From: Tyzzerella sp.
GTDB lineage: Bacteria; Bacillota; Clostridia; Lachnospirales; Lachnospiraceae
DNA length: 44,382 bases
NCBI GenBank assembly: GCA_017410145.1
Contig: JAFQRJ010000011.1
Span: 1-44,382, forward strand
Direction of reading: 5' to 3'
A program made the position numbers and the translations under genes. Of the stretch, positions 3,448-34,498 are shown in pieces. Positions within the stretch are counted from its first letter, which is position 1. Every line of letters starts with the position of its first letter. The notes under the pieces are model-generated. The model worked only from the letters and a program-made list of their open reading frames with translations. It was not told the origin of the DNA and made no database searches.

Positions 3448-4644
3448 TTACTTTTTCCTAATCGGCGCAGCCACCAGAACACCGGCTAACATCAGGGCTC
3501 CCCATACAAGAATCAAATTCCCCCAACCAATGTCTGATACGGCATTTGCAAACAACTGATTAGCCAATGCAGCCGCTGCATAACTCAGAAAATCCAGATA
3601 CCCGGTTGCGGTTGACACCATTCCTGTATCTTTTAAGCTCGGACAATATGCATTCCACAAAGCACATGACGCACCATTTGCAGTCAAAATTGCTAGGAAG
3701 AAAAATAAAATATTGACGGCACCATTTGACACGATATACATCATCAGAAAAGAAAGTGCACTAGATGCAAACGTCACTATCAGCATTACATTTACATTCC
3801 TTTTTAAAAGCTTATCATAGAGTAAAACCATACTAACATACGGCGTTACCGCCTGGGCAATTGACATTACTGTAAATATAGTTGTAGCACTCGCAGAAGA
3901 TAATTCCAAATACTGCGACAGATAGGTTGGAATCCAAAATACAACGGAGGTTCTTACGATACCAGTCAAAATCGCCACAAAAGAGAATTTAATAATGGCA
4001 TGTTGCAATAAAATTTTGATACCCCCGCCCTTCTCTGATGTCTTCTGTATCTGTTTGTATTGAATAATTCCTGATTTCTCAAACCTATGGAAGCAAATAA
4101 AACTTAGTACTCCAATAAATATTAAGGTGAAACCACATACAACAAAGACCATATTCCACCGGAAAACAATAGCCAGTATTCCCACAATTGGAGTTCCCGT
4201 CAAAGAAGCAAAGGTAAGTCCTAAACTACAGCGAATTGCATGTATCGGTCTCGTATTTTCTGCAATCACCTTCATCATTGGAGCATACAACATTGATAAA
4301 AAGAAGCCACTTAAACTGTATACTGCCGTAACCAGCATTCTCACATCAGAAAATGCCATAATCAGATAACAGATTCCGGAAAAGGTTAATCCAAAACCTA
4401 TCATGTATTTTGACTTAATTCTATCTCCAATGATTCCATTTGCCAACTGACCTACAGCGTAAAAAAGCATATTGGATGTTGAGAGAAGGCCGATATACTG
4501 AATATCATAGAAGCCTTCCTCAATCATATAAGGTGACACAACGCCAAGTAGATTTTTTGCAAAATAACATGCCACATATCCCAGAACACAGATTGCTCCT
4601 ATGTAAAATGCATTCTTGGCATCTTTTGTTTTAAAAATAGTCAT
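3448..4644 (-). CDS. MFS transporter, organophosphate:phosphate antiporter (GlpT/UhpT-like)
   Basis: A 398-aa inner-membrane carrier with about 12 hydrophobic segments. The first helix region YVACYFAKNLLGVVSPYMIEE and the loop GQLANGIIGDRIKSKYMIGFG match the MFS signature and are closest in style to the OPA branch (GlpT, UhpT, PgtP), which swaps sugar-phosphates or glycerol-3-phosphate for phosphate. The substrate cannot be read from sequence. It is the last gene of the 18-gene run, starting 2 bases after eutH, whose final codons (GGA GAA TAG) supply the ribosome binding site. That indicates translational coupling. Its neighbours are two phosphoesterases and an ethanolamine carrier, which supports a phosphorylated substrate. 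Confidence 0.75.
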   Translation of the reverse strand: MTIFKTKDAKNAFYIGAICVLGYVACYFAKNLLGVVSPYMIEEGFYDIQYIGLLSTSNMLFYAVGQLANGIIGDRIKSKYMIGFGLTFSGICYLIMAFSDVRMLVTAVYSLSGFFLSMLYAPMMKVIAENTRPIHAIRCSLGLTFASLTGTPIVGILAIVFRWNMVFVVCGFTLIFIGVLSFICFHRFEKSGIIQYKQIQKTSEKGGGIKILLQHAIIKFSFVAILTGIVRTSVVFWIPTYLSQYLELSSASATTIFTVMSIAQAVTPYVSMVLLYDKLLKRNVNVMLIVTFASSALSFLMMYIVSNGAVNILFFFLAILTANGASCALWNAYCPSLKDTGMVSTATGYLDFLSYAAAALANQLFANAVSDIGWGNLILVWGALMLAGVLVAAPIRKK

Positions 4645-4646
4645 TC

Positions 4647-5735
4647 CTATTCTCCCTTAATGTTGCTTTTCTTTTTCAGTTCGTACACATAGTTTGCCAC
4701 AAAGATCGCAAACACGCCTGCAACCAATTTGCCCACAATCATCGCCGGAACATAACTCTGGTCAAGTGCCATTGTAAATGCAAGATGACCTCCAAAAACA
4801 AATGCTGCCGATACGGAGAATGCCGAATTTAGAACCACGCCTTTTTTATCCATTTTATACATGAATCCAAAGGTCGGACTGCTGGATACCAACGTGGAAA
4901 CAAACCCAAGAGCTGACACTTCGTTGATTCCCATCTTTTCCCCAATATAACACAGTGGCTTCTTTAAGAGTTTTGTGACAATCCACATGAAAGGAAACGC
5001 GCCCGCAAGCACGACACTGGCATTTACACAAACCATAGCTCCCTCTTCTAAGGTTGAAATTGGACTCACAAGCTCATTTCCGGTCAAGAAATGAATCATC
5101 CCTATCACCAGCCCTACTGTTATCAGTCCGCGAATGAAGACTGCAAAACCACTAAAAATCTTGATACAAGCATCCGGGTATCTCAGAAGTCCAAAACCAA
5201 CAATTCCTGCAAATATCAGAAGTGGAAACAAATCAACCAGCAATGCTCCCAATGAAATCTGCAACATCAATCCCGAAACCAGGCAACCCAAAGGAATTGC
5301 AACTATACCACACAGCACGCCCAGAAAAAGTTCCTTATGCTGTTCAAACTTTACAACTCCCAAGGCAAATGGAATGGTATAGGAAATGGTAACACCCATC
5401 ATACTGGAAATAATCAAGGCATTGAAGCCACCAACCTGTTCATTGACTGCTATCTGTGTAGCCAGAGGCGCACCTCCCATATCGTTTGCAAATAACATAG
5501 CCGGAACAACCGACGGATCAATATGTAAATACTTCCACACAAATGTAAACACCGGTTCCAACACGCTGGCAAGCCAAGGCGTAATCACAATCATTCCAAT
5601 CATGGATAACGCCATGGCTCCTAATAATCCGAATCCTTTTTCAAATTCCTTTCCAAGCCCAAATCTGCCGCCTATGATACGGTCCAAAGCCCCCAATATC
5701 GAAAACACTATCACTACAACTGTAATAATATTCAT
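4647..5735 (-). CDS. eutH: EutH-like ethanolamine transporter
   Basis: A 362-aa polytopic membrane protein with roughly 10-11 hydrophobic helices. EutH proteins carry ethanolamine across the membrane, mainly when external levels are low or acidic. Family features include N-terminal SILGALDRIIGGRFGLGKEFEKGF, the FANDMGGAPLA motif near 82-92, and the C-terminal LVSSSPTFGFMYKMDKKGVVLNSAFSVSAAFVFGG region (shown here in outline). No other eut gene (ammonia lyase EutBC, shell proteins, EutD/E) occurs in this window, so the gene has been recruited into the glycan operon or the rest of the pathway is elsewhere. It lies 19 bases after the PHP gene, with GAGAGGATAGGAAG before its ATG. Confidence 0.88.
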   Translation of the reverse strand: MNIITVVVIVFSILGALDRIIGGRFGLGKEFEKGFGLLGAMALSMIGMIVITPWLASVLEPVFTFVWKYLHIDPSVVPAMLFANDMGGAPLATQIAVNEQVGGFNALIISSMMGVTISYTIPFALGVVKFEQHKELFLGVLCGIVAIPLGCLVSGLMLQISLGALLVDLFPLLIFAGIVGFGLLRYPDACIKIFSGFAVFIRGLITVGLVIGMIHFLTGNELVSPISTLEEGAMVCVNASVVLAGAFPFMWIVTKLLKKPLCYIGEKMGINEVSALGFVSTLVSSSPTFGFMYKMDKKGVVLNSAFSVSAAFVFGGHLAFTMALDQSYVPAMIVGKLVAGVFAIFVANYVYELKKKSNIKGE

Positions 5736-5754
5736 CTTCCTATCCTCTCACTCT

Positions 5755-6564
5755 TTACAGTTCCGTTGGAATGAACCCATCCTTAGTAAGTATAAACTGT
5801 TCCTTAAATCCGCACTCTCTCAAAACTTCTACAGCATCTTGATATCCATAATCCAAGAATCTGGAGTCGTGACAATCTGTGGAAATAATAGCACCAAATC
5901 CAAGTCGTTTCAATTCCTTTAGCAAAAACATATCTGGATATGGTGATGTGCGATATCCTCTTGCCATGGCTCCTGTATTCACTTCAAAATACGGAATCTT
6001 TCCTGCAAGCTGTTCCGCAGCCTCAATAGCCGCCCACTGATACTCTTTTGAACTCCTATCAAAAAACTGTACCTTCTCACAATGCTTGGTAATCAAGTCA
6101 AAATGAGCGATGATATCAAAAGAACCATGCTGTGGCAACTGGGCTAACTGCTGATAGTATGCTTTGGCGTATGCCATCCCATCGCCACCAAAATATTGTT
6201 GAATAATGGTCTGTACATCCTGTGCAGACCAATCAAAACAAACAAATTCATTCCCGAGTGGCAAGTAATGCACAGCACCAATTAGATAGTCAAAACCGCA
6301 CAAATCCATATCTCCATGCATTTCACATTCTAACCCGCAAAACACTTCTATCTTATCAGCAAACTTCTTTTTAAATTCAGCAATCTCATATTTGTAATTA
6401 TCGATAACCTGCTTCGGCACGGGCAAACCTTTCCAAAAAGCGTGGGACGAAAAACCAATAGACCGCAAACCTTTCTCACATGCTGCAAGAATCATTTCCT
6501 CTATCGTATCTTTCCCATCACAATAAGTTGAATGTGTATGTAAATTCTGTAGACACTTTGCCAT
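5755..6564 (-). CDS. PHP-domain phosphoesterase (histidinol-phosphatase family)
   Basis: A 269-aa polymerase-and-histidinol-phosphatase fold protein. The first metal site is visible as LHTHSTYCDG (H9, H11), followed by GFSSHAFW, GLECEMHG, a YLIGAVHYL segment, IIAHFDLITKH, FEVNTGAMARGYRTSPYPD and a C-terminal ISTDCHD motif, which together give the trinuclear metal site. Annotated relatives are HisK/HisJ histidinol-phosphatases, but no histidine gene lies nearby. In this context it more likely cleaves a sugar- or alcohol-phosphate released from the glycan, which is inference. It starts 15 bases after the GH13 gene and has a TTGGAGGAGAGCGT ribosome binding site. It is probably cytoplasmic, as no signal peptide is seen. 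Confidence 0.8.
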   Translation of the reverse strand: MAKCLQNLHTHSTYCDGKDTIEEMILAACEKGLRSIGFSSHAFWKGLPVPKQVIDNYKYEIAEFKKKFADKIEVFCGLECEMHGDMDLCGFDYLIGAVHYLPLGNEFVCFDWSAQDVQTIIQQYFGGDGMAYAKAYYQQLAQLPQHGSFDIIAHFDLITKHCEKVQFFDRSSKEYQWAAIEAAEQLAGKIPYFEVNTGAMARGYRTSPYPDMFLLKELKRLGFGAIISTDCHDSRFLDYGYQDAVEVLRECGFKEQFILTKDGFIPTEL

Positions 6565-6579: not shown

Positions 6580-8127
6580 TTATTCATATACCTTCATCCA
6601 CACATATGAAATCGGTTTTAATGTAATCTTATCCTCTGCCATCTCTATATTGGAAGATGCTAACACATCTCCTATTTTGTGGTCAACTGTGTATTCTCTT
6701 TCTGAAGGGTTTACCGCACAAATCAGGCTTTCCTTCCCTGTTGTTCGTTTAAATACCAGCGGATATGTATCTGATATTAATTCAAAATCATTTCCACATC
6801 CAAACAACTCTGGGTATGCTCTCTTAACCTCTACAAGTTTTTGCACTTCTTTTATTAAAGAACCCTCTTCATTTAATTGTGCTTCCACATTGACATCCTT
6901 ATAGTTGTCATAGATTGGGAGATACATTTCCCCATCACCTGCACTAAATCCTGCGTTCTTTCCCGCACTCCACTGCATCGGGGTACGGGCACCGGTTCTG
7001 CAGTATCCGCCGTCCTTACTATTCAGTCTCTCATACGGCATTCCAATTTCATCTCCATAATAGATCAGTGGTACATTTGGAAGGGCAAGAATAAATGCAA
7101 ACACTGTCTTTAACTCTTCCGGAGTACGTCCCATAGCAATACGTGGAAGGTCATGATTCCCTGTAACAATGGAAACATATCCCTTTTCCTTCACTTCTTC
7201 CAAATTATATAAGAAGTATTCAAAGAAGGATTGTGCCTCACCCTTCCCTTCCGGTCTGAAGAAACTGTTTCCGTCTGCATAGAATGCATTGGTTCCTGGT
7301 TCCTTTCTGAAGAGGTTATTGTATCCTTCGTTATAACAATGGGTAAAGAAATCAATATCAAAATCTCCATTCTTCACCGCATACATCGGTTGTCCCCACT
7401 CCGATACGAAGATTGCATCCGGATATTCCTCACGAACTTTTCCAAAAATCTTTCTCCAAACTTCACAGGAATACTTGCCGTTTACATCATCTTTTACAAT
7501 GCTTCCAGCTAAGTCTACACGGAATCCATCTACACCCATAGCCAGATAATATTTGATAATATCAATTACAAGACCGTGTACTTTCTGACAAACTGCATCC
7601 GTGTAATGATACTGCCAGCTTTGCTTCTTTTCCGCAAAACCAAAGTTCAGTGCCGGTTGGAAACAGAAGAAGTTAATCAAGTAATTTCCATCTCTATCGC
7701 TGTTTCCACTCATATGTTTGTATGGACAATAACCAAATACATCATCGCTCCACACGTAGTAATCCCAGTACTCATTTCGCTCTGCTTTTGCAGACTCCTT
7801 GAACCATTTGTGCTGGTCAGAAGTGTGCCCAACCACAAGGTCTAAGAGTACCTTTAATCCTAACTTGTGCGCCTCTTTAATCAAGTCTTGCAAGTCTTCC
7901 ATAGTTCCAAATTTGTCATCAATTGCATAGTAATCCTCAATATCATATCCACCATCTCTAAATGGCGACTTGTAGATTGGATTAATCCATACAATATCTG
8001 CAAACTGTTTGATATAAAGGAGTTTCTCTGTAATTCCCTTTAAATCCCCAATTCCATCTCCATTGCTGTCATAGAAGGATGTTGGGTATACATTATAAAT
8101 AATTGAGTTTTTTATATTCTGATTCAT
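6580..8127 (-). CDS. GH13 alpha-glucosidase/oligo-1,6-glucosidase-like enzyme
   Basis: A cytosolic 515-aa alpha-amylase superfamily enzyme that should cut alpha-glucosidic bonds in imported oligosaccharides. Conserved GH13 regions are VLLDLVVGHTSDQH (93-106), GVDGFRVDLAG with nucleophile D205, FVSEWGQP with acid/base E243, and VTGNHDLPR with H325/D326. The N-terminal YNVYPTSFYDSNGDGIGDL has the QPxSxxDxxGDGxGD-like oligo-1,6-glucosidase signature, and PMQW appears later. I chose ATG 8127 because GAAGGAG lies 11 bases upstream. A longer frame to 8190 would run back into the preceding metallophosphoesterase gene. The exact specificity (isomaltose, sucrose, trehalose-P) cannot be decided by eye. 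Confidence 0.88.
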   Translation of the reverse strand: MNQNIKNSIIYNVYPTSFYDSNGDGIGDLKGITEKLLYIKQFADIVWINPIYKSPFRDGGYDIEDYYAIDDKFGTMEDLQDLIKEAHKLGLKVLLDLVVGHTSDQHKWFKESAKAERNEYWDYYVWSDDVFGYCPYKHMSGNSDRDGNYLINFFCFQPALNFGFAEKKQSWQYHYTDAVCQKVHGLVIDIIKYYLAMGVDGFRVDLAGSIVKDDVNGKYSCEVWRKIFGKVREEYPDAIFVSEWGQPMYAVKNGDFDIDFFTHCYNEGYNNLFRKEPGTNAFYADGNSFFRPEGKGEAQSFFEYFLYNLEEVKEKGYVSIVTGNHDLPRIAMGRTPEELKTVFAFILALPNVPLIYYGDEIGMPYERLNSKDGGYCRTGARTPMQWSAGKNAGFSAGDGEMYLPIYDNYKDVNVEAQLNEEGSLIKEVQKLVEVKRAYPELFGCGNDFELISDTYPLVFKRTTGKESLICAVNPSEREYTVDHKIGDVLASSNIEMAEDKITLKPISYVWMKVYE

Positions 8128-8153
8128 CTCTTGCCAAACTCCTTCAACTCTTG

Positions 8154-9242
8154 CTATAGTTTTTCTTCCCGAACAGTTTCGCCCAAACAATCGGTAAATG
8201 TTACCACCGTGTCAGCCTCATCAAACATGAGTCCTGCTCCGGCATAGTATTCGTGGTTCGCTTTTATATCAGAACCAACCACAACTGGGAACTGCTGCCC
8301 ATAAAGGTCCTTTTCATTCCCCGGTCTGACAATATCCAAGTAGTGCATATGACCGCTTAGCATCAAGGTCGGTCTGATATTCTTAGCAATCAAGCTTGCC
8401 CATTCTCCATAAAGTTCTTCTTCAATATCAAAAGGTGCTCTCTGCTTTACTGTAAACGGATGGTGTGCAATCACCATACGATATTTTACATCATCTGCCG
8501 AATACTCCTCTTTTGCGCGTGCAATCACACCTTGGATAAATGCAGTCTGTCTTTCACGAAATGCGTGACAACAAATGGTTCCGCCATACTCCCCATTTTC
8601 GTCAACCTTATCTTCTCCGCAGTCAAGAATCATTCCCCAAATATTTCCCAAACGGAATGTATAGTAAGATTTTCCATTATCTGTTGGTGTAAGTTCACAA
8701 AAACGCTCCGCAAGAAGACCTCTCATATCATGGTTTCCCCTTGCAAATACAATCGGAATACGTCCTTCTGCAACCTTCGATGCAATCTCATAAATCGTTA
8801 CACAGTTCTCAATACATCCGCTATGGTCAGGGATATCTCCGTTAAAAATCAAAAAATCAATATCTCCGTATGCTTTTGCAGCAGCCACCGGACCTTCTAC
8901 CCAGTTGTGGGTATCTGCGATATGATAAGCACGTACAGGTTCCTCTAATGGCACCGGACAAAATTCATATGTATATTCCTGTGTCTCCTCAATCTCAGGA
9001 TAATACGGCTTTCTTTCAATCACTTTTCGAAGACATACCGTATAAGCCCCGGCCGCATTTAATTCCTCCATCGGAACAATTGCTCTATGCACCTGCGTAT
9101 TGGAACGTAAAATACCATTTGCTTCGTCATAATATTTCTTATCGCCAACCTGTACCCACATAAGGCTCGGCTCCGACACATACATCATAATGTGATACTC
9201 TTGTTTTACTGCAAAAACTGCCGGTGTTAAGATTGTGTTCAT
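8154..9242 (-). CDS. Calcineurin-like metallophosphoesterase
   Basis: A 362-aa cytoplasmic phosphoesterase with the full dimetal motif set: D110-x-H112 in IADTH, G135-D136 in FNGDIPD, GNHD at 169-172, H260/H261 in IAHHPF and GHMH at 297-300. Residues 1-100 form a beta-rich N-terminal domain like that preceding purple acid phosphatase-type cores. The ATG at 9242 is preferred because GGGAGG lies 9 bases upstream; an extension to 9350 would overlap the GH20 gene. It sits 26 bases after GH20 and 26 before GH13. With the PHP enzyme two genes on, it suggests dephosphorylation or phosphodiester cleavage of imported material. The substrate is unknown. Confidence 0.85.
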   Translation of the reverse strand: MNTILTPAVFAVKQEYHIMMYVSEPSLMWVQVGDKKYYDEANGILRSNTQVHRAIVPMEELNAAGAYTVCLRKVIERKPYYPEIEETQEYTYEFCPVPLEEPVRAYHIADTHNWVEGPVAAAKAYGDIDFLIFNGDIPDHSGCIENCVTIYEIASKVAEGRIPIVFARGNHDMRGLLAERFCELTPTDNGKSYYTFRLGNIWGMILDCGEDKVDENGEYGGTICCHAFRERQTAFIQGVIARAKEEYSADDVKYRMVIAHHPFTVKQRAPFDIEEELYGEWASLIAKNIRPTLMLSGHMHYLDIVRPGNEKDLYGQQFPVVVGSDIKANHEYYAGAGLMFDEADTVVTFTDCLGETVREEKL

Positions 9243-9268
9243 ATTCTTGTTCCTCCCATTACACATGC

Positions 9269-10894
9269 TTATAGCACATTTGTCGTAATTGCTCGTTTCC
9301 AACTGCCGCAAACCGTGATTTCCTGTGCCAAAATCTCTCTTGCACCGCAAAAATCCAATTGCACCTCTTCCAGTTCCTCGATTCTATCTATGGTTCCATC
9401 GTAAAGTTCCTGTAATCTTTCCATACAGCTTTGTATACGACGTATCACGCCACCAATTCGTATATCCTGAACGTCGAATCCATGTGGCTTATTATCTGTA
9501 AACCATTGTTTTCTGTAGGTATAATAAAAATCCTGCATTGTTTGTAGCATTGTTCGATAATCTTGAATTAAGGTGACTAATACCTCGCGGTCTCTGGATT
9601 GGTAAACCTCTCGCGTGCGTCTTCCTAATTCTGCTTTAATGGATAACACTGCACAAAGATTCTCCTGTGTTTCAAAGAGATATCTCCATTCAGTCCCTTT
9701 CGCCGCTTTACTTAACTGTTCCGCAGTATACGCATACTGCGCATTCTCTCCACCTGCAATAGTAGAATCCAGAAGACCGGTAAAGCAATCATTATAAAAC
9801 AAATATTTTTCCGGATTATAGAGCATTCCCCTTTTTCTTGGACTATCTGGTAAATCCAAGAGCATAAATGTGTCATACGAAATGCCGAACTTCTCCTCAA
9901 ATTTCACCTTGATATCATCTGCATCGTTATTTCCCTTTGCAATCTCAGATGCATAAAAGAGCGCCGGAAGCATTGCATATTTGGAACACTCTGCGCCGTC
10001 ATCTCCCCAGATAGTCAGGAATACATTTTGCACACCATTGTCCATACAGCTTTGAAGTCCCGGCACGAGGGTCCTAAGGCTAAATTCATTATACGGCGCT
10101 ATGGAATTCCATGCGTATAAACCACCGGCAAATCCCGTTCCCTTTTTCATCTTTTCATGGGCCTGAATCATGTTGTCGTAATGTATCTTATCATCATGAT
10201 AGTAATCCCAATAAATCAGTTGCACGTTACTTGGAATCTGCTTTGTAACTTCCTCGCTAATTTGTGTCTTACTCACATCTTCGCTTCCATACTTTCCACC
10301 TGTTGCCAAGCGAAAGAACATATCAGACCACATTTCCAAAGTAAAGCCATATTTTTCAGCAATCTGGGCAACCCGTTTTAAATGCTCTACGAAGATTTGG
10401 AAACGATTTACCTCGCCATGCAAGTCATAATATTTTCCACGGCCAAGCATGTGAGCCTCGTCCATACCAATATTCACAACCTTCGTGGTATAGCATTCTG
10501 CTATGGTGGCAAACATCTTGTCTATCAATTCATATACCTTTTCATCGCCCACAAGCAATATATCATTCACATCCACATGTGGTCTGTAATCCGGCCAAGC
10601 AACAATTGCATTGAGGTGCGCCAGCGTCTGAATACATGGAATTAATTCCATACCTTTAGAAAGAGCATATGCATCCACTTCCTTTAACTCCTCTTTGGAA
10701 TAACGGCCACGCATATATCCAAAGTAAGGATTGTCTTCCACTTCATAGGTATCTTCTGTATACAAAAGGAGTGCATTGTAGCCCAAATCTGAAGTGATAT
10801 CAATCCATCTTTTCAGACTGTCTACCTTCATGACTGCATTTCTGGAGCAATCAACCATTGTTCCAAAACGCTGGAATTTCACTTTGTTTTCCAT
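9269..10894 (-). CDS. GH20 beta-N-acetylhexosaminidase (GH20C-like, cytosolic)
   Basis: A 541-aa enzyme expected to release terminal GlcNAc or GalNAc from imported oligosaccharides by substrate-assisted catalysis. The adjacent D145-E146 pair in VNIGMDEAH is the GH20 catalytic signature. The barrel is visible around it: LGYNALLLYTED, GMELIPCIQTLAHL, LEMWSDMFFR, LIYWDYYHDD and FAGGLYAWNS. No signal peptide is present, as in the intracellular GH20C type. The ATG at 10894 follows GGAAGAAAGGAAAAAATC. An in-frame upstream start at 10942 lies within a hairpin and is less likely. A 60-base gap with an 11-bp stem separates it from the small protein gene. Confidence 0.87.
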   Translation of the reverse strand: MENKVKFQRFGTMVDCSRNAVMKVDSLKRWIDITSDLGYNALLLYTEDTYEVEDNPYFGYMRGRYSKEELKEVDAYALSKGMELIPCIQTLAHLNAIVAWPDYRPHVDVNDILLVGDEKVYELIDKMFATIAECYTTKVVNIGMDEAHMLGRGKYYDLHGEVNRFQIFVEHLKRVAQIAEKYGFTLEMWSDMFFRLATGGKYGSEDVSKTQISEEVTKQIPSNVQLIYWDYYHDDKIHYDNMIQAHEKMKKGTGFAGGLYAWNSIAPYNEFSLRTLVPGLQSCMDNGVQNVFLTIWGDDGAECSKYAMLPALFYASEIAKGNNDADDIKVKFEEKFGISYDTFMLLDLPDSPRKRGMLYNPEKYLFYNDCFTGLLDSTIAGGENAQYAYTAEQLSKAAKGTEWRYLFETQENLCAVLSIKAELGRRTREVYQSRDREVLVTLIQDYRTMLQTMQDFYYTYRKQWFTDNKPHGFDVQDIRIGGVIRRIQSCMERLQELYDGTIDRIEELEEVQLDFCGAREILAQEITVCGSWKRAITTNVL

Positions 10895-19233: not shown

Positions 19234-19234
19234 T

Positions 19235-25969: not shown

Positions 25970-27532
25970 TCACTTGATATTCTTTAACCAGTTTGTTTCG
26001 TAATCATCATTGATTTTATCAATTACTAATTTCCATGCTTGTTCCGCTGTCATTTGCTCTCCTGCATTGTTCGTACAGAAGCTAAAGATATATTCAACCT
26101 CTGCGAAATCTGATGCCCCCGCATTAAAGATTGCATGTCGTTTATTCATATGCATATCTGGCAGATTTTCAGCTTGTTCCAGCAAACTGAAATGTTGTTT
26201 TGCATACGCACTATATTTAGATGTGTCATACGTTTCCCCTGTACTTAAAGCAATAGGCATCGGATTCTGTACGGTATCAGCATAGATTTTCAAGCCCTCA
26301 TCGGAATACATGTATTTCAAGAATTCTTTTGCACCTTCCTTAGAATTTGAATAAGTAGGAACAAATGAAACCTGACCTGCAAAGTTGCTGGCAACTGTAT
26401 TTCTTGCAGCCGTTACATATTCCCAATCTGCTTTGGAAATAACAGTATCTCCAATTTTGTAATCTTCTCCGGATGCATAGTCAGAAAGCTGCTTCTTTCC
26501 TTCTGAAATCTGATCAACTGCTGTGATAACTTTTCTTAATAACTTGTCGTCATTGACGGTTGATAACTTGTCTTTAATACTTGATAATACCGGTGTTTGC
26601 ATAACCGCAAATTTATCAGAAGAGCCAAGGTTTCTCATTTCGTATGACAACCAAGAACCATTGAACATCATTGCCGCTTTGTCATTTAAGAATTCAGTCT
26701 GTATCTCTGTATGGCTTTTTGAATTGGAACCTGCCAATACATATTCTGGTGTGATAAATTGTTCATATGCCTTCAATGCATAGTAACGACCATCCTTCTT
26801 TGTTAAAACATCCTTGCTTGGGCTTTTTCCTGCTTCATCCTTACATGAATAGAAATTATTTGTATAATAATCAATACCATCGTATTGAGCCATAAATACT
26901 TGAGTCATATATGTATAATATCCACCCTGTACAAAGTGGCAAAGTGGTGTGACACCATAACTTTTCAAAGTATCACATACCAATGTCAATTCATCCGTTG
27001 TTCTTGGTAACTGTGTAATCCCGGCTTCTTCGAACATCTTTGTATTGTATACCATTCCCAATGTTCCACCACCGCAGGTTAGTGAATAGTAATGTCCGTC
27101 TTCTGATTGTGCTCCTGCCAGGTAAGTGGCATTAAATTTTTCTTTCAAAGACTTTTGATCGCCATCTGCCGTAGCATCCAAAATATCGTCCAATGGCTCC
27201 ATAACCTCATACTCGCGAGACACATAAGTCAAATACAAATCCGTAGTATCGATATCTGCCATTCCAAGAGATGCATTTACTGTCTTTATATTTGACGAAT
27301 CGCTAAAAGTCACATTGTACTCTGGATGTTTTTTTTCAAAACCTGCTATAACATTTTCAAGCCACTCAATCCCAATTCCACTGTTCCATACAGCAATCTC
27401 AATATCCACTCCTGCTTTGTTGGAACTCGTTTTCTTGTTGCCACCTTCTCCGCCTCCACATCCCGTGAGACAAGCAGCAGTCATTGCTGTCGCCAAAAGA
27501 ATTGCTAAATATTTTTTTCCTTTTTTCATCAT
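25970..27532 (-). CDS. Sugar ABC transporter substrate-binding lipoprotein (family 1)
   Basis: A 520-aa extracellular binding protein that would deliver oligosaccharides to the permeases encoded just upstream. The lipobox is CLTGC (C25). The family 1 pattern is clear: IAVWNSGIGIEWLENVIAGFEKKHPEYNV, then MVYNTKMFEEAGI, the AAMMFNGSWLS motif and a C-terminal YMYSDEGLKIYA. GGAG lies 9 bases before ATG 27532. At 520 aa it is longer than common maltose-type binding proteins (about 420), mainly through inserts in the middle, which may mark a larger or unusual ligand. Confidence 0.9.
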   Translation of the reverse strand: MMKKGKKYLAILLATAMTAACLTGCGGGEGGNKKTSSNKAGVDIEIAVWNSGIGIEWLENVIAGFEKKHPEYNVTFSDSSNIKTVNASLGMADIDTTDLYLTYVSREYEVMEPLDDILDATADGDQKSLKEKFNATYLAGAQSEDGHYYSLTCGGGTLGMVYNTKMFEEAGITQLPRTTDELTLVCDTLKSYGVTPLCHFVQGGYYTYMTQVFMAQYDGIDYYTNNFYSCKDEAGKSPSKDVLTKKDGRYYALKAYEQFITPEYVLAGSNSKSHTEIQTEFLNDKAAMMFNGSWLSYEMRNLGSSDKFAVMQTPVLSSIKDKLSTVNDDKLLRKVITAVDQISEGKKQLSDYASGEDYKIGDTVISKADWEYVTAARNTVASNFAGQVSFVPTYSNSKEGAKEFLKYMYSDEGLKIYADTVQNPMPIALSTGETYDTSKYSAYAKQHFSLLEQAENLPDMHMNKRHAIFNAGASDFAEVEYIFSFCTNNAGEQMTAEQAWKLVIDKINDDYETNWLKNIK

Positions 27533-27557: not shown

Positions 27558-28418
27558 TTATCCTTTAATTCCGCCAACCGAAACGCTGGTGGTAAGCACT
27601 TTGTTAAATGCAATAAACATAACCAATGCCGGTATTGCAACAATCATACATGCTGCAAAAAGTACATCCAGTCTTGCTTTATAAATCATCTCAACATTAA
27701 ATTGCTGAATACCAACAGGAAGTGTCGGTAATTTCGGCAAGTACAAAAGTACGCTGCTCCAGTTGTTCCAGCTAGCTAACCATGTTGTTAAAAACAGCGA
27801 GAAGAACAACGGTTTTGCCTGTGGCAACATAACCTTTGAGTAAATTTGAAAATGGTTTGCACCATCCATCATGGCTGCCTCTGCATATGTCCATGACAAG
27901 TTCTTAAAATATGCTCTGTAATACAGAAAATGTAGATTAAAACCTGCACAAGAAGCCAACACATGTGCATATGTATTAATCAATCCCAATTCGTGATATA
28001 GTCTGTAGGTTGCTCCTCCGGTTCCATATATCGGAAGTGTTGTCATAATCAATACAATGGTATAAATCCATTCGGAACCAGGAAATTTATACTTGGAACA
28101 GCAATACGCGAAAGCAATCGTTACAAACTGCTGCAAAAACGCTCCTACTACCGAGAACCAAACACTGTTAAACAACATTTGACCGAATCCATTATTATTG
28201 ACATAGAATACCTCAGGCAGTTCTGAGTAACTGCTCCAGTTCAATACTTTAGGTAACGAAAATGGGTCTAATACGATTTCCGTATGTGTTTTTAGGGAAC
28301 TCATGAGAGTCCAAGCTATTATGTAGATATAACTTAATGCAAACAGCAAGAAAACTAGTGATACAAAACAATATAGAAGTTTCTCTGCCGGCGCTTTTCT
28401 TTTTAAAGATTTAAACAT
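27558..28418 (-). CDS. Carbohydrate ABC transporter permease (MalG-type)
   Basis: A 286-aa inner-membrane permease with six predicted helices and the cytoplasmic coupling motif EAAMMDGANHFQIYSKVMLPQAKP, which docks the ATPase. The C-terminus TTSVSVGGIKG is typical of MalG-like subunits. A GGGAGG ribosome binding site precedes the ATG. It pairs with the next upstream permease (15-base gap). No ATP-binding subunit is encoded in the window, so a shared MsmK-type ATPase elsewhere is expected, a known arrangement in Firmicutes CUT1 systems. Confidence 0.92.
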   Translation of the reverse strand: MFKSLKRKAPAEKLLYCFVSLVFLLFALSYIYIIAWTLMSSLKTHTEIVLDPFSLPKVLNWSSYSELPEVFYVNNNGFGQMLFNSVWFSVVGAFLQQFVTIAFAYCCSKYKFPGSEWIYTIVLIMTTLPIYGTGGATYRLYHELGLINTYAHVLASCAGFNLHFLYYRAYFKNLSWTYAEAAMMDGANHFQIYSKVMLPQAKPLFFSLFLTTWLASWNNWSSVLLYLPKLPTLPVGIQQFNVEMIYKARLDVLFAACMIVAIPALVMFIAFNKVLTTSVSVGGIKG

Positions 28419-28433: not shown

Positions 28434-29339
28434 CTAAAATTCCACGTCATCGAACATTTTATCAGTGAATTTTCTGATTCCTATTGAGATTCCAATGGCC
28501 ACAATTGTTGTCATCAATCCCACTGCTGATAAATAGTTATAGACATTTGCTGTATAAGACGCTCCTGACGATTCCAGTACCTGTTTGTACATCCAAACAC
28601 TCAGGGTAATTGTTCCATGACTACCATTGTTCAAAAGGAAAGCATTACCGCTTGCACCAAAGATTCCGCAGAATAACAATACCATCTGCAATGCCACTGT
28701 CGGCCATACCATCGGCACAATAATTTTGGTAAACTCACTCCACCAGGTAACACCATCAAGAGAAGCTGACTCCAGCACTTCCTCCGGAATACGTGCGAAA
28801 GTTCCTCCCCAGATAATCAAATCCCCTGGGAACTGTAACCATAACATCTCTAACAAAACAACCGTATTCGCAAATCGTTCGTCCTGCAAAAGCTCCGGTG
28901 TGTATCCCAAGTCCAAAATTTCGCCCACAGATTGTGCAATGAAACCATTCACACCAATAATTCGGCTGAATACCATCGTCGTACAAACCGCGAATAGAAT
29001 ACTTGGCAAGAAAAACACAATACGGTAAAAGCCGGAACCCGGTACCTTTTTATAAATAAAATAAGAAACCATTACTTTGAACGGATACGCCACAAAAAGA
29101 ATACCAAATGTCAAAAATGTATTCCGAAACGCAAGTCTGATATCAGACGTCGGAAGCTTAAGCTCCTTAAAAAATCGTGTAAAGTTATCCAACGACCATA
29201 CGCCTTGACTATCCCGAAAGGCCATAAAAATCGTCGAGAAATTCGGATACACGTAAAAGATTAACCACTGTATAATCGGTACAGAAATACAACAAATAAT
29301 AAAAATTACTTCGTTAAATTTCCTTTTTTTCTTTTCCAT
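28434..29339 (-). CDS. Carbohydrate ABC transporter permease (MalF/UgpA-type)
   Basis: A 301-aa inner-membrane permease with six helices, opening with CISVPIIQWLIFYVYPNFST and containing the coupling motif ESASLDGVTWWSEFTKIIVPMVWP. It forms the heterodimeric channel with the MalG-type partner. Its start lies 26 bases inside the end of the 580-aa surface protein gene, with AGAGGG upstream of ATG 29339, which suggests translational coupling of surface capture and import. The substrate is not evident from sequence. Confidence 0.92.
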   Translation of the reverse strand: MEKKKRKFNEVIFIICCISVPIIQWLIFYVYPNFSTIFMAFRDSQGVWSLDNFTRFFKELKLPTSDIRLAFRNTFLTFGILFVAYPFKVMVSYFIYKKVPGSGFYRIVFFLPSILFAVCTTMVFSRIIGVNGFIAQSVGEILDLGYTPELLQDERFANTVVLLEMLWLQFPGDLIIWGGTFARIPEEVLESASLDGVTWWSEFTKIIVPMVWPTVALQMVLLFCGIFGASGNAFLLNNGSHGTITLSVWMYKQVLESSGASYTANVYNYLSAVGLMTTIVAIGISIGIRKFTDKMFDDVEF

Positions 29340-31056
29340 TTGCTTGCCCTCTTTTCAAAATCAGTACAAATGCCACAACACCTACAGCCAAAATTGATAC
29401 ACTAATCAGAATCGGAGCTAGTAGGGATTCTCCTGCCGGTTTATCAATTTCGCCATTCGCAATAAATACCTTGCCGCCGTCGCCTGAATATTTTGCATAT
29501 AAAACTGTAGATTCTGTAACTATTTTTTCAAAATCAAATTCAGTACCATCTTTTAAGCACCATCCCTCGAACTCATATCCTTCCATTTTCGGTTCTGTAG
29601 GTCGCATCGCATAATACCCATATTTGTTCGAAAGCTTCTGTGTCTCAATCTTTTGCTCTGTACCGGTCACAAAACGCACTTGATAATTGTACAAACGTTC
29701 ATATTTCATTCCTTTGCTGTCTGTAATTCGCTTATACAGATAATCCAGGGTTTCTTTATTCTTTCCAATGGATGCAGTCATCACATTTTCGGAGATCTGA
29801 TATGTACCATCTTGTGTTGCTTTGTCTTTTGTAAATTTCAATTTTTGGTCTGCATAAAGTGCAAATGAATTTTCATTCTCTTTACAATAGTAGGTTGCTT
29901 CACACCCTGCGTAATCCTCCATTAAACCATAATGTTGAATTACAGCATCTTTATTACATTGCACTCCGAGATGATTCTTATTCCCGTCGTAGCATTTGAA
30001 ATTCGTAAGTTTAAAACTACCTGTCTTGCTTTCACCAAACCATAAAGAAAAGATATTCAAATCCTCTTTCTCTGTATTTAAATTCTGTATGGTTTTAAGA
30101 ACATGTATGGTAGTAACACCGTTCTTTGTTTTCTGAATCCATACATTAAAATGTGGTTCTGTCTTTTCCATGCAGATGATATATTCTGCCCCCACATCTA
30201 ACAGTAACACTTGCTTTTCCTCTGCAGAATAGTTGGTATATCTGAGAATACCTGTAGAATGTGGATATCCTGCTTCCGGCTTATTCGACAAAGCAATTCC
30301 GTCTTGATTAAATGCATAATCCGCTTCTTCCACCTTGTATTCCATGTACACCTTTGATGTAGTTGGAATCTTCACATGGCTAATCGCAATGTTGGATTGC
30401 TTGTTAATCGTAATATCATAGCGATGGTCAATAATGGTATCTTTTTTCAATCGAGTACTTGCATTAAGCACCATACCTTGTTCATCCGATACATAAACAC
30501 CCAAATCATTGCCTTCGGCATCATAACAACGAACATTGGTCAATTCTACCTTTGCAGCCGTTGCACCCAGCCACAAACCAAAGTGTTGCATCTTATCAGT
30601 ACCTTCGCCATACACCATCTCCATGTAAACTTCTTCTAGTGCATCACCTTTTGCCTTTGTTACGTTGTAACGGAAACCACCTTCTGCAACTCTGAATTTA
30701 ATAAAATACGTGGCTCCTTCATCCAACATATGTTGGTCGTCGTTGCTACCTCTAAGTAAGCCACCCTTCTCATAAGGGTAGTTCTGCGTACAATCATCTG
30801 TACCAACAAGTCCCTGTTGAAGCGGGTTTTGTTCCACTTTTTTAACGGTGTACGTCATAAAGTATTCTGTTCCTACCTCTGAACCATTTGCTTTCTTATT
30901 ACACACAAATGCAGCATTTCCATTTAGGTAAACATTGTAATTTACTGTACTTGGCGTTACCGCCTCCGCTGTCAATGTGAGCTGACCGAAAGCGGAAACC
31001 AGCATGATGGCCATCATTAGGAAACTTGCAACGGTTTTTGCAATTTTCTTTTGCAT
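29314..31056 (-). CDS. Membrane-anchored surface protein with duplicated beta domain and InlB-like module
   Basis: A 580-aa exported protein. The signal peptide ends near LTAEA. Two related extracellular domains follow: the first (about 37-200) contains EYFMTYTVKKVEQ, FGLWLGATAAKVELTNVRCYDAEGNDLGV; the second (about 215-370) repeats this as VYMEYKVEEADY and FSLWFGESKTGSFKLTNFKCYDG. Then come a lipocalin-like stretch, an InlB B-repeat-like segment (YEFEGWCLKDGTEFDFEK, TVLYAKYSG) and a final helix (LLAPILISVSILAVGVVAFVLIL) with KRGQANGKEKK as stop. This should display the two binding domains on the cell surface. GGAGGG lies before ATG 31056. Function as a glycan receptor is inferred. Confidence 0.75.
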   Translation of the reverse strand: MQKKIAKTVASFLMMAIMLVSAFGQLTLTAEAVTPSTVNYNVYLNGNAAFVCNKKANGSEVGTEYFMTYTVKKVEQNPLQQGLVGTDDCTQNYPYEKGGLLRGSNDDQHMLDEGATYFIKFRVAEGGFRYNVTKAKGDALEEVYMEMVYGEGTDKMQHFGLWLGATAAKVELTNVRCYDAEGNDLGVYVSDEQGMVLNASTRLKKDTIIDHRYDITINKQSNIAISHVKIPTTSKVYMEYKVEEADYAFNQDGIALSNKPEAGYPHSTGILRYTNYSAEEKQVLLLDVGAEYIICMEKTEPHFNVWIQKTKNGVTTIHVLKTIQNLNTEKEDLNIFSLWFGESKTGSFKLTNFKCYDGNKNHLGVQCNKDAVIQHYGLMEDYAGCEATYYCKENENSFALYADQKLKFTKDKATQDGTYQISENVMTASIGKNKETLDYLYKRITDSKGMKYERLYNYQVRFVTGTEQKIETQKLSNKYGYYAMRPTEPKMEGYEFEGWCLKDGTEFDFEKIVTESTVLYAKYSGDGGKVFIANGEIDKPAGESLLAPILISVSILAVGVVAFVLILKRGQANGKEKKEI

Positions 31057-31070: not shown

Positions 31071-33143
31071 TTATTTTGAATTTAAATATTCACTTAATAT
31101 TTCATAATAATAAATCGGCATTGCACTCCATCCGTGACACAAAGAACCAGCATGAGCAAAGTCTGCCTCTCCTTTGATTGTCTCCCAGAAGGTTGTTGCG
31201 CCGTTTCTTAACATGTATAAATAAGTCTCATCGATTTCTTCCAATATGAACTTGCCATACTGTTCTCTATCTGCTTTGAGCAATGCGTCATAACGGTATG
31301 CATTCATGGAAAGTGTTGCCGGAATCACATTTGCATGAGGTTCGACTGAGCCGTTCGCTCTCATTATCTTTATCATTTCCTGGCTATTTACGCTTTCACC
31401 TGCTCCGCACAGGTATGCCCACGCATTTCCCAGAACACTATAATCCACATCATGACCTATACAGGTTCGGAACAAACCGATCTTCTCATTGTAAAAATTC
31501 TCCACGATACGACGGTTCAATTGCTGTTTTGCTGTGAAGTATTCCTCCTTGCAAATTCCCACCACATCACAAAGCTTCATAAAGTGGTCCATTACAAAAG
31601 AGAACAAGGTGTTCAGGCACAGGTCGTAGGCTTGACCTTTATAGGTATAACCCTCCAGTCCTTCCTGCCATTCATAGAAGTTCCAGAATTTCTGTTCCTC
31701 ATCAAAGTTCGGTAACAAGCCTTTCTTATCAATTCGTGCCAGAAAACTTTCCACAATTTTCTTCACTGTTCCAAAACATTCTTCCACTGTTTCCTTGTCT
31801 TTCGTGTACTCATAATACTCCCTCAGTTGTATCACATATGCGAGTGTGAAAGACGGAATGGAAAGTCGTTCTCTAGTCGGAAAGCAGATTGGCAAGGCTC
31901 CGTCATCCCTAACGGATTTTGCAATCAGTTTCAAAGTTGCCTTTGCAAACTCGTATTCCGAAAATGCATAATACCCACAAAGCATCTGATTGCGTGTATC
32001 CATCGTATACAGAGACTGTTCTCTCCAAGGACAATCCTCGTAGTGTTCATGCATACAATGTAGCAATGTGTCCTGACTTACCTCGTAAATCTTGTCTCGG
32101 AGTAAGTTCCCACTCTGGAAAACCTTTCTTTTTACCGGATAGGTAGTTGGTCGTAAACCCGCATAATGAATCTTTACTTCTTTTGTATGTATAAAAAACT
32201 GAAGGTAACGACATCCCAAACGGCGGAATGGATTCATATATGCATTGAGACCTTTCTGCAATTCCACCGTCACAGAAAAGTTTCTTGTACCAATACTGGT
32301 TCGACATCGTCCATCCTCCAAATGCTCGCCCCAGCCTACTTCCATACAGCAGTCATCCGGCACTTCCAATTCAAAGTCAAGATATCCTGAGGTTTCTTTT
32401 TGCAAATCTACAATAAAGTAGATATCTTCTCCCGTAGGAGAAACCAGTGTGTCCTGACCTATTTCCCAATATTTGTAACTAGTTAAATTCGCATATTGCA
32501 TCTTGGCTCCGAAATGATTTTCTCCCTCTCGATAGGTAAATGTACCTCTCTGCACAATCTTTGTGTCAACACGTGGGTTCACACATAATTTTTCAATTGG
32601 TCTTGGAACTAACTCCTTAGGCATATCATCCACAATTTGACTAACACCGAAACCTGTTTTTGATTCGCCTGTCATCCACTTATTTGATTTCCTAAGATTT
32701 ACATGGAAATTCAATCCCAATTGGGCAGTAATCATTTCGTTCTTTCCACTGATATATCTCTTACTATTTCGACTTAGAATGAATTCGTTAGAGCTTCGAA
32801 CCACATCTCCATTTCTTTCTATCTCAAACAATAACCCCGGAGTCCCAACATAATAATTAAAAGAAGAAACTCCGTAATACCAGACTATGAAGGCGATATG
32901 GTTAATACCTGTTTTGATAAAACTACTTAAATCAAGCTCATCGTATACTTTATAAAATGGATAGTCCCCGTATTGACCACTATTTACAAAACGTCCATTT
33001 ACATAAACCGCATAATTAGAGTCAGCCGATAGTCTCAAACAAACTGCATCATGTTCTTGAAATTCACAACTGGTGATAAATTCCGTATAACAATCTGTAC
33101 CTTTGGAATCGGAATTCCAAATCCACTTTGCATTGTCAAACAT
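31071..33143 (-). CDS. GH78-like alpha-L-rhamnosidase family glycosidase
   Basis: A 690-aa cytosolic enzyme. The N-terminal half is beta rich (WIWNSDSKGTDCYTEF, NYAVYVNGRFVNSGQYGDYP), as in the accessory domains of GH78. The (alpha/alpha)6 barrel starts near 340. The signature DCPWREQSLYTMDTRNQ at 370-386 aligns with the DCPxRxERLGWTGD motif of GH78 but has W-R-E-Q-S in place of the usual charged pattern. A second acidic candidate is in NGATTFWETIKG near 650, and HGWSAMPIYYY follows. Overall family placement is good; rhamnose specificity is not assured, because the motif departs from the characterised enzymes. GGGAGG precedes ATG 33143. Confidence 0.8.
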   Translation of the reverse strand: MFDNAKWIWNSDSKGTDCYTEFITSCEFQEHDAVCLRLSADSNYAVYVNGRFVNSGQYGDYPFYKVYDELDLSSFIKTGINHIAFIVWYYGVSSFNYYVGTPGLLFEIERNGDVVRSSNEFILSRNSKRYISGKNEMITAQLGLNFHVNLRKSNKWMTGESKTGFGVSQIVDDMPKELVPRPIEKLCVNPRVDTKIVQRGTFTYREGENHFGAKMQYANLTSYKYWEIGQDTLVSPTGEDIYFIVDLQKETSGYLDFELEVPDDCCMEVGWGEHLEDGRCRTSIGTRNFSVTVELQKGLNAYMNPFRRLGCRYLQFFIHTKEVKIHYAGLRPTTYPVKRKVFQSGNLLRDKIYEVSQDTLLHCMHEHYEDCPWREQSLYTMDTRNQMLCGYYAFSEYEFAKATLKLIAKSVRDDGALPICFPTRERLSIPSFTLAYVIQLREYYEYTKDKETVEECFGTVKKIVESFLARIDKKGLLPNFDEEQKFWNFYEWQEGLEGYTYKGQAYDLCLNTLFSFVMDHFMKLCDVVGICKEEYFTAKQQLNRRIVENFYNEKIGLFRTCIGHDVDYSVLGNAWAYLCGAGESVNSQEMIKIMRANGSVEPHANVIPATLSMNAYRYDALLKADREQYGKFILEEIDETYLYMLRNGATTFWETIKGEADFAHAGSLCHGWSAMPIYYYEILSEYLNSK

Positions 33144-33171
33144 GTTTTTCCTCCCAAATGCTACAAATCCA

Positions 33172-33750
33172 TTAAATATTTTCAGGACGAACCTCTAATT
33201 TCAGAGGAAAGTCTCCCAATTTATTTACTTTAAAGCCATTTGCTTTGTATTCTTCATAATTAAAGGCTTCCAACTCATCAATTGCCAGTTTGTGGAATTC
33301 ATAGAAGTTGTGCCACCATTCATAACCACTGCCAAGCTCTGCATTCAAATAAGCATCTGCAATATCGCATCCCATTGCCGGAGCTACATAAAAGGCTCCC
33401 ATCGCAAGAACATTGACTCCGTTACCCGTAATTGCACGAAGTGCAGCCGGAACGCTTTCTACAACACCCGCATGAACATGAGGACATTTACTTGCAGCAA
33501 TATGAATTCCCATTCCTGTTCCACAGAAAAGCAATGCTCTTTCAAATTCACCTTCCGAAACCAAAGAACCTGCACGTAAACCTACGCGATGGAACATAAG
33601 ATCTGTGTCATCCGGGTCAGAATCAGCGCGCACACCAACGTCTGTAACTTCCCACCCCTTCGCTTTCAAATGTGCAACAACCGCTTCTTTTAATGGGTAA
33701 CCTGCGAAATCTGCACCTACTAAAATTTGTTTGTTTTTCACTGTCTTCAT
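33172..33750 (-). CDS. RpiB/LacA-family sugar-phosphate isomerase
   Basis: A 192-aa aldose-ketose isomerase of the RpiB/LacAB fold. Visible: ILVGADFAGYPLKE at the N-terminus, the active-site cysteine loop FCGTGMGIHIAASK, NGVNVLAMGAFYVAP, and a C-terminal extension of about 45 residues (HNFYEFHKLAIDELEAFNYEEYK) beyond the usual 150 aa. The family DHAG motif reads DFAG here, losing the His that participates in ring opening in RpiB. This argues for a substrate other than ribose-5-phosphate, for example a tetrose- or deoxysugar-phosphate. It lies second in the glycan operon, with TGGAGG before its ATG. Confidence 0.85.
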   Translation of the reverse strand: MKTVKNKQILVGADFAGYPLKEAVVAHLKAKGWEVTDVGVRADSDPDDTDLMFHRVGLRAGSLVSEGEFERALLFCGTGMGIHIAASKCPHVHAGVVESVPAALRAITGNGVNVLAMGAFYVAPAMGCDIADAYLNAELGSGYEWWHNFYEFHKLAIDELEAFNYEEYKANGFKVNKLGDFPLKLEVRPENI

Positions 33751-33766
33751 TCTTCATTTCCTCCAT

Positions 33767-34498
33767 TTAATGATTCATAATTGTATGTACCAACTGCCAT
33801 GCAAACAACTCATGCATTTCTCTGACAGGGTGATTCAATCCATTTGATAAAAGCTCTGTTGTATTTACTCCGCATTCCTGCATCTTTTTCCAGATAGCAT
33901 AACAGTCACAAAGCACAACATTCTCTTCCTTACAAGCCTCTCTTGCTGCTTCCATATATGCATCAAAGACACCTTCGTTTTGCCGTTTTGCAAAAACTTC
34001 AGCCAAAGGCTCTAAAATGTCCCCCGGCGAAACCTTGCTTGAGTCTGTATTCATCATGTTCGGCGTCATGAAAATCGTTTCGATGCCTTCTTCTTTTGCC
34101 GTTTGAAAAATCTTTTTTAAAGTCTCTTTGTAGATGTCAATTCCTTCTGCATCTCCATTACTGTCGTTTAATCCGAAACACACAACCATTAAATCCGGTT
34201 TCATCGGTAGCACATCTCTTATCAATCTCTCATACCCTGCAGGAGCTGTACTACCATTTACTCCAAAATTCAAGATAGACACCGGTGCCTTCGGATAAAG
34301 AAGTGCCATAATCTTCTTAACTTTCTCCGCATATCCTGCCAGACTGTCGAACACCACTTCAAAACTTTTTCCTTTTTGGTAAACCTCAAAGCACCCTTGT
34401 GTAACACTGTCTCCCAAGAACGCAATCATAGGTGTTCTGGTGCCTGGATTATCTTCTGTTTTTTTCTTTAATACTTCAACAAACTTCATCCTTAACAT
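33767..34498 (-). CDS. SGNH/GDSL-family esterase, first gene of the operon
   Basis: A 243-aa hydrolase, probably a carbohydrate O-acetyl/acyl esterase acting inside the cell (no signal peptide). Blocks seen: IAFLGDSVTQG with the nucleophile serine, FGVNGSTAPAGYE for the oxyanion glycine, FGLNDSNG for the asparagine, and NGLNHPVREMHE for the histidine. The Asp that usually lies three residues before the catalytic His is Gly here. The start is weakly supported: ATG 34498 has AAAGG close by, and a second ATG lies 9 bases further in. It is the promoter-proximal gene, read divergently from araC. Confidence 0.85.
   Translation of the reverse strand: MLRMKFVEVLKKKTEDNPGTRTPMIAFLGDSVTQGCFEVYQKGKSFEVVFDSLAGYAEKVKKIMALLYPKAPVSILNFGVNGSTAPAGYERLIRDVLPMKPDLMVVCFGLNDSNGDAEGIDIYKETLKKIFQTAKEEGIETIFMTPNMMNTDSSKVSPGDILEPLAEVFAKRQNEGVFDAYMEAAREACKEENVVLCDCYAIWKKMQECGVNTTELLSNGLNHPVREMHELFAWQLVHTIMNH

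Follow-up and report, generated by a model that had tools for sequence, protein, structure and literature searches.

The 44,382 nucleotides of contig JAFQRJ010000011.1 of Tyzzerella sp., an uncultured bacterium of the gut (assembly GCA_017410145.1, 68% complete), here called the window, contain a run of 18 open reading frames (ORFs), all on the minus strand between 3448 and 34498, beside a divergent AraC-family gene (34767-35636, +), as a first-pass annotation of this DNA had described. We found that six consecutive genes of the run, g16 to g11, form a conserved cassette of surface and import proteins. Its order g16-g15-g14-g13-g12-g11 is complete at 11 of the 27 loci examined that bear a gene of the g11 family, which we call barrels, and these 11 are spread over seven genomes. 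The first-pass annotation had reckoned that orthologues scattered in relatives would count against its grouping, and such scattering is not what we observe. From this block and the enzymes encoded around it we propose, giving the proposal roughly an even chance, that the locus is a Gram-positive polysaccharide utilization locus (gpPUL) built around a six-gene surface cassette, which would capture and import a rhamnose-bearing heteroglycan. The polymer would most likely carry alpha-glucosyl side chains and, in this genome, also alpha-galactose, beta-N-acetylhexosamine (HexNAc) and phosphate. Rhamnose-rich bacterial cell-wall polysaccharides are the polymers to compare.

Conservation and Paralogy of the Cassette

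Complete cassettes are present three times in the genome of the window (contigs C10, which is the window, C8 and C13), three times in RUG223 and once each in RGIG3649, UBA3220, RGIG2058, SIG426 and SUG1655. The 27 loci comprise nine contigs of the window's own genome, the window included, and 18 named loci. Gene order was checked at 18 of the 27; the other nine (own C14, C18, C27, C29, C30 and C31, and L052-L054) have barrels without the block, as seen in an earlier view, and the short loci L019, L023-L026, L031, L032 and L034 were not judged for synteny. Contig ends truncate the block at L039, L042 and L049, where the visible genes keep the order; g16 is missing from it at L046 and L051, and only the permeases and g11 stand at L045. 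At L084 (SUG1655 C29), g16, g13, g12 and g11 are present and both permeases absent, so this cassette possibly borrows permeases, its genome having a complete cassette elsewhere. Of the 11 complete cassettes, 8 have an AraC-like gene upstream on the other strand, though not always as the next gene, and giant secreted repeat proteins stand behind the cassettes. The barrels of own C30 and C31 accompany other ATP-binding cassette (ABC) importers, a second and looser type of locus (the C14-C31 set, six contigs). Directly before the cassette there is a serine hydroxymethyltransferase gene at L037:1988-3241 (Pfam) and L038:2020-3258 (look-alike N-terminus), and at L010:1187-3859, on own C13, M81/MlrC and M24 metallopeptidase-family genes separate the AraC-like gene from the cassette.

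In a tree of concatenated cassette proteins from 16 loci, each of the three RUG223 cassettes grouped in a separate clade together with cassettes from other genomes (support 1.0, 1.0 and 0.88). Within the window's genome the C8 and C13 cassettes are 85% identical to each other, and the C10 cassette is 45% identical to them. The earlier view of a glycan locus with an unusually rich extracellular layer is supported, as are conserved synteny in relatives and several paralogous cassettes per genome. At least part of that layer, the barrel family, looks enzymatic.

A search with g11 matched 3 of 98 relatives (own genome included, one match weak) and, among nine other genomes of the same genus, only G004, which is apparently RUG223, as the proteins begin alike; a first contig scan with g11 alone as query found no relative. 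The barrel profile at 1e-10 matched 3 of 397 family genomes, with at most four candidates scored per genome. Full-length g16 had 13 matches in 8 of 18 genomes pre-chosen for barrels; among 398 phylum genomes it was found in the own genome only, and 33 others, among the matches listed, matched the repeat part alone. The relatives are labelled Lachnospiraceae, Ruminococcaceae, Oscillospiraceae, Clostridiales or Clostridia. Herbivore gut (goat, roe deer, water buffalo, horse) appears in the record titles of 7 of the 18 named loci, and RUG in genome names we take to stand for rumen.

The Extracellular Layer

Reading N-termini, lipoboxes and C-terminal hydrophobic stretches, we assigned to the outside of the cell the lipoproteins g13 and g11, the transmembrane (TM)-anchored g12 and g16, and the giants g8 and g10, in agreement with the prior count of at least five extracellular proteins in addition to the binding lipoprotein. 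The membrane products are the two sugar permeases, the EutH-like protein and the organophosphate-type permease of the major facilitator superfamily (MFS). No signal peptide was seen in the glycoside hydrolases (GHs) of families GH36, GH20C, GH13 and GH78-type, nor in the SGNH, RpiB-like, calcineurin-like and PHP proteins.

The anchored proteins had been called lectin-like, a description for which the databases offered no support: no lectin family matched g12 or g16, and the repeats of the giants had no credible lectin or ConA-like match. Flg_new, the Listeria-Bacteroides repeat, is present in 10 of 10 g16 homologues, and six further families each match a single member, none better than 0.012; in the g16 of the window it was the only Pfam match, and most of the protein falls in no family. 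The window g12 matched zero Pfam families, and among 16 g12 members three families occur, each in one, at 0.013 or worse; a C-terminal hydrophobic stretch is present in all 16. Each giant has seven repeats (in g10, six at first pass and the seventh only after iteration). Twelve of the 14 repeats were aligned, and they gave no credible Pfam or PDB match (best Pfam 0.0018, BspA_v, in 1 of 12). We also considered a lectin or jelly-roll kinship among the repeats, g12 and g16 and rejected it: with hhalign the repeats showed no link (probabilities of 0.6 and 0.4%), and g12 against g16 reached 54% over 47 columns only, from which we claim no kinship. The giants were rightly described as secreted repeat proteins, but g8, of 1998 aa, carries in addition the second barrel copy of the locus, beside g11, and a dockerin-like segment below the Pfam cut-off (Dockerin_1, 20.3 vs 22.9 bits).

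The Barrel Family

In the own genome the g11 search matched 15 stretches, g11 itself included and two of them in one ORF, and the profile also counted 15 barrels, on nine contigs; as the assembly is 68% complete, their number is at least 15. In an alignment of 59 stretches from 56 proteins, every one of the 55 that have a letter at these positions shows Asp167-Glu168. Tyr237 is likewise invariant (55 of 55), Asp235 is conserved in 51 of 55, and at position 274 there are 43 Gln and 3 Glu among 54. By eye we take position 274 to be the nucleophile site of clan GH-A, at the end of strand 7; the catalytic Glu that marks the clan is thus mostly replaced by Gln at the position so assigned. Among solved structures, the closest chains are those of beta-galactosidases and of a beta-1,2-glucosyltransferase (1.9e-4 to 1.5e-3, partial matches), and Glyco_hydro_42 and DUF4434 were found in 3 and 2 of 53 barrels, respectively, at up to 0.01. 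The family has a distant, partial profile likeness to the GH42/GH35 beta-galactosidases of clan GH-A. It differs from them in that its acid/base motif reads Asp-Glu-Pro and Gln mostly occupies the nucleophile position. The roles given to these motifs, and the GH family numbers other than Glyco_hydro_42, are our assumptions, as is the likening of the Asp-Glu pair to the Asp-Glu pairs of GH20.

We read the barrels as a putative enzyme family with an altered active site. That they are instead a non-catalytic glycan-binding fold, a remnant of GH-A enzymes, seems somewhat doubtful to us: the predominance of Gln at position 274 speaks for it, but the Asp-Glu pair and Tyr237 are invariant. Furthermore, a hydrophobic N-terminus is absent by a simple hydropathy rule in 15 of 56 barrel proteins, and about 11 of 56, doubtful starts and fragments excluded, are stand-alone barrels of this kind, a form that a surface binder would not need. 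A far bolder idea, which we hold to be quite improbable, is that a modular equivalent of the Sus system arose in monoderm gut bacteria. A paralogous six-gene surface cassette would have spread across families, and the barrel would be a new GH group, its nucleophile changed from Glu to Gln, that uses the Asp-Glu pair for substrate-assisted catalysis at amino-sugar linkages in rhamnan-type polymers of bacteria.

Enzymes Encoded Around the Cassettes

Seven complete cassettes could be read past the giants: those of the window, RGIG3649, UBA3220, SIG426, RUG223 C78, RGIG2058 and SUG1655 C27. GH78-type and GH13 genes are present at the first five, and it is for this reason that we propose a heteroglycan bearing rhamnose and alpha-glucoside. 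The GH13 proteins of the other four are 45-70% identical to g5. RpiB-like and SGNH genes are found in four of the seven (the window, UBA3220, SIG426 and RUG223 C78; neither was seen in RGIG3649), the three further copies being 84-90% identical to g18 and 42-44% to g19. A GH20C protein behind the RGIG3649 cassette is 36% identical to that of the window and a phosphoesterase in SIG426 50%. At L051, a homologue of GH20C and a weak one of g17 precede the permeases. In a whole-genome search, homologues of g17 were found in 10 of 11 genomes, including RGIG2058, SUG1655, RUG14147, RGIG4713 and RUG223 (C70), and homologues of g5 in 8 of 11. In G004 (RUG223) it is C70, and not C78, that carries the closest homologue of g17 (57%) and, some 8 kb from it, a homologue of g5 (43%); this pair possibly belongs, as cargo, to the cassette on C81, a contig that stops early.

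Around the RpiB-like gene we examined 18 places (15 of 30 listed, plus three cassettes) and found a GH78 gene within 10 kb at nine, vs 1.0 expected; outside cassettes the count was 5 of 14 vs 0.77. Because the GH78-type and GH13 cargo recurs and the RpiB-like gene has GH78 neighbours, a rhamnose-bearing target appears to be the best shared explanation for most of the cassettes, though not for all. The RpiB-like gene itself was rejected as a cassette-specific feature: a close homologue is present in 28 of 291 class genomes, and the cassette was seen at none of the 13 neighbourhoods fetched around them. The protein (33172-33750) mostly shows 83-95% identity across many families of the class, with 70-73% in three. 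Its neighbours in the cassette loci reach far lower values, and a 94% copy lies on own contig C23. EutH was likewise rejected as a general marker, being found for 4 of 17 genome handles (two seemingly the same genome), outside the window on contigs without a cassette.

Pfam and PDB matches agree with the GH36, GH20(C), GH13, GH78-like, SGNH and RpiB-like enzymes named in the first-pass annotation (Table 1); the EutH-like protein, the PHP protein, the calcineurin-like phosphoesterase and the MFS permease were unnamed there. The GH20, GH36 and GH78 proteins contain motifs that we take to be catalytic, and those of the GH13 protein g5, for which a pattern script found nothing, were read by eye and are presumably catalytic as well. 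Beyond the common cargo, the locus has the alpha-galactosidase, GH20C, the phosphoesterases and EutH. No ABC ATPase family was found in the 18 genes with Pfam, and one OB_MalK ATPase was found in G004. ABC sugar importers of this kind are known to use a shared ATPase, in line with one encoded elsewhere.

Table 1. Genes and hairpins of the locus, in the direction of transcription of the 18-gene run.
Feature	Position	Strand	Basis
AraC-family regulator, divergent	34767..35636	+	Pfam HTH_18 8.3e-19, AraC_binding 1e-9
g19, SGNH/GDSL esterase-like	33767..34498	-	Pfam Lipase_GDSL_2 9e-18
g18, RpiB/LacAB-like isomerase	33172..33750	-	Pfam 6e-28
g17, GH78-type alpha-L-rhamnosidase-like	31071..33143	-	Pfam Bac_rhamnosid6H 1.6e-22; PDB Rhamnosidase B 9.5e-53
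g16, cassette gene 1: signal peptide, region without known family, Listeria-Bacteroides repeat, C-terminal TM	29314..31056	-	Synteny, Flg_new
g15, cassette gene 2, sugar ABC permease	28434..29339	-	NCBIfam MalF-like 5.5e-12, below cut-off; synteny
g14, cassette gene 3, sugar ABC permease	27558..28418	-	Pfam BPD_transp_1 2.4e-11; synteny
g13, cassette gene 4, solute-binding lipoprotein	25970..27532	-	SBP_bac_1 5e-23; NCBIfam TIGR03850 8.5e-33, below cut-off
g12, cassette gene 5, secreted, C-terminal TM anchor	24399..25958	-	Synteny; without known domain
g11, cassette gene 6, barrel-family lipoprotein	22982..24412	-	Own-genome paralogues; distant GH42/GH-A likeness
g10, secreted giant, seven repeats	19235..22957	-	Repeat search
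g9, GH36 alpha-galactosidase	17056..19233	-	Pfam Melibiase 3e-142; PDB AgaSK 1.7e-296
g8, secreted giant, 1998 aa: seven repeats, dockerin-like segment, barrel	11067..17063	-	Dockerin_1 6.2e-4, below cut-off
33-codon ORF (MKKYEKP...), inside g8-GH20C gap	10955-11056	-	AGGAGG site
Strong hairpin, 12 pairs	10921..10948	-	-18.7 kcal/mol, z -5.45
g7, GH20C beta-hexosaminidase-like	9269..10942, likely start 10894	-	Pfam 5.8e-55; PDB GH20C 7.3e-130
g6, calcineurin-like phosphoesterase	8154..9350, likely start 9242	-	Pfam 8.7e-13
g5, GH13 alpha-glucosidase-like	6580..8190, likely start 8127	-	Pfam 9.6e-80; PDB match
g4, PHP-domain phosphatase-like	5755..6564	-	Pfam 4.7e-16
g3, EutH-like permease	4647..5735	-	Pfam EutH 4.6e-107
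g2, MFS permease, organophosphate-antiporter-like	3448..4644	-	Pfam MFS_1 1e-31; NCBIfam PgtP 8.8e-28, below its cut-off
Hairpin 3' of last gene, terminator-like, weak T run	3402..3445	-	z -3.49

Organization of the Run

The gaps between genes had been given as 1-60 bases or overlaps. This mostly stands, as they range from -26 to 30 bases when starts are chosen with Shine-Dalgarno sites (42 for one alternative start), but a wide gap at 10930 had been missed. It is the only one of the run and extends from the end of giant g8 (11067) to the GH20C gene, over 124 bases by the longest ORF and 172 to the likely start at 10894. The hairpin within it is possibly an attenuator, a terminator or a processing site. 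Because so strong a structure lies inside the run, one transcript is not to be assumed; a single transcript over the 18 genes is plausible, and it may stop in part at 10930. Promoter- and terminator-like matches in the sequence showed no clear excess over shuffled sequence. An ORF resembling the 33-codon one in the gap sits just before the cassette at L043:2992-3132, and as this was the sole other similar ORF, the peptide was rejected as a common cassette feature. The end of the locus is flanked (window 290-3370) by a gene with an HTH_38 domain, which we take to be transposase-like, and a HipA-like gene.

Proposed Function and Alternative Explanations

In the function that we propose, the AraC protein would sense an import product and turn the locus on. 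The secreted repeat giants would bind the polymer near the cell, the membrane-anchored g16 and g12 would hold the polymer or a giant at the wall, and the barrel domain, in lipoprotein g11 and in the C-terminal part of the giant, would cut or bind the polymer. Oligosaccharides would then be imported by the binding lipoprotein and two permeases, with the ATPase encoded elsewhere, and dismantled in the cytosol by the GH78-type, GH13, GH36 and GH20C enzymes, the esterase and the isomerase. Phosphate- and amino-alcohol-like decorations would be the task of the phosphoesterases, EutH and the MFS permease of organophosphate type.

Several observations weigh against this proposal. The complete cassettes of RGIG2058 and SUG1655 C27, and the g16-less L046 (RGIG8226), are without such enzymes behind the giants, and SUG1655, RGIG8226 and RUG14147 are without a close g5 homologue. 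EutH, PHP and an MFS permease of the window type were in no other cassette seen and may be separate cargo, and EutB was found in neither of two genomes (own, 68% complete, and G004). GH78 and GH13 are families of varied specificities, the barrel, mostly without the GH-A nucleophile, may be inactive, the hairpin may split the 18-gene run, and the own assembly, which is incomplete, yielded no OB_MalK.

The same machinery might serve a glycoprotein (plant hydroxyproline-rich or N-glycosylated proteins, or a host glycoprotein), a target that we consider rather unlikely. Terminal rhamnose, alpha-galactose on serine, HexNAc and glycosylphosphatidylinositol (GPI) phosphoethanolamine would fit GH78, GH36, GH20C, the phosphoesterases and EutH, and genes that would suit such a substrate occur near cassettes and barrels: a GH38 alpha-mannosidase behind the RGIG3649 cassette and, on own C14, less than 20 kb from a barrel gene, a GH29 fucosidase on C30 at about 13 kb from a barrel gene, serine hydroxymethyltransferase beside the RUG223 C81 cassette and the M24/M81 metallopeptidase-family genes beside that of own C13. 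However, the GH13 of five of the seven readable loci would be without a clear role there, and none of the 18 window genes belongs to a peptidase or mannosidase family in Pfam. Nor do we think it probable that the locus is an ordinary gpPUL for plant rhamnose polymers (rhamnogalacturonan I, arabinogalactan side chains), its extracellular proteins being plain binders resembling carbohydrate-binding modules (CBMs). The herbivore gut named in the titles of 7 of the 18 relatives and the GH106 and GH43 genes in the RUG223 C78 locus are consistent with it, but polysaccharide lyase, GH28, GH105 and GH88 were found in none of the 18 genes (Pfam), and the phosphate-related genes would be left unexplained.

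A different objection concerns the unity of the run, which may comprise two or more independent adjoining units, a cassette unit (34498-11067) and a second one (10942-3448). We lean against this division. The hairpin and the 33-codon ORF in the sole wide gap argue for it, as do the PHP and EutH homologues of UBA3220, which lie 1.7 kb apart on opposite strands and on a contig other than that of its cassette; on the other hand, the T run is weak, and genes downstream of the hairpin recur at other cassettes (GH13 in four, the phosphoesterase in SIG426).

Comparison with Known Systems

The locus resembles eut ethanolamine operons in its EutH-like permease and differs from them in that EutB was found in neither of the genomes named above (EutC was not sought). 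A possible likeness to cellulosomes would lie in the sub-threshold dockerin-like segment of g8; no cohesin family was found in the window proteins, the only ones in which it was sought. The likeness to the Sus/PUL systems of Bacteroidetes would be one of working: a conserved surface-import block recurs within a genome in several divergent copies, and each copy has enzymes of its own. Among the 18 proteins Pfam gave neither a SusC/TonB nor a SusD family, and the window uses import of the monoderm ABC type. The likeness concerns a possible mode of working, not descent.

The usual picture of a glycan locus in a monoderm is that of a single binding protein accompanied by hydrolases. If our proposal is true, a conserved extracellular block in divergent copies would give gut Clostridia a defined capture machine, the cassette would give context to the orphan giant secreted proteins of such genomes, and the barrels would be a testable candidate GH family with an unusual active site. 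In the titles and abstract openings of the open-licence papers listed by the searches, no description of the extracellular block or the barrel family was found. The closest match is the gpPUL, defined, in the part of the source consulted, by at least one polysaccharide-degrading enzyme, a carbohydrate transport system and a transcriptional regulator (PMC5320581). In Roseburia/Eubacterium rectale, regulator, ABC importer and glycoside hydrolases stand in one locus, and the window has the same set (PMC5320581): GH36, GH20C, GH13 and GH78-type enzymes, whose substrate we infer to be a polysaccharide, a solute-binding protein with two sugar permeases, and the AraC protein. The same text expects polymer binding by CBMs inside enzymes (PMC5320581), whereas the window has a conserved six-gene block that includes two membrane-anchored proteins and a barrel lipoprotein, and it has repeat giants. 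By this published definition, and judged from its predicted proteins, the locus is a gpPUL, but apparently a new and conserved variant with a dedicated extracellular layer.

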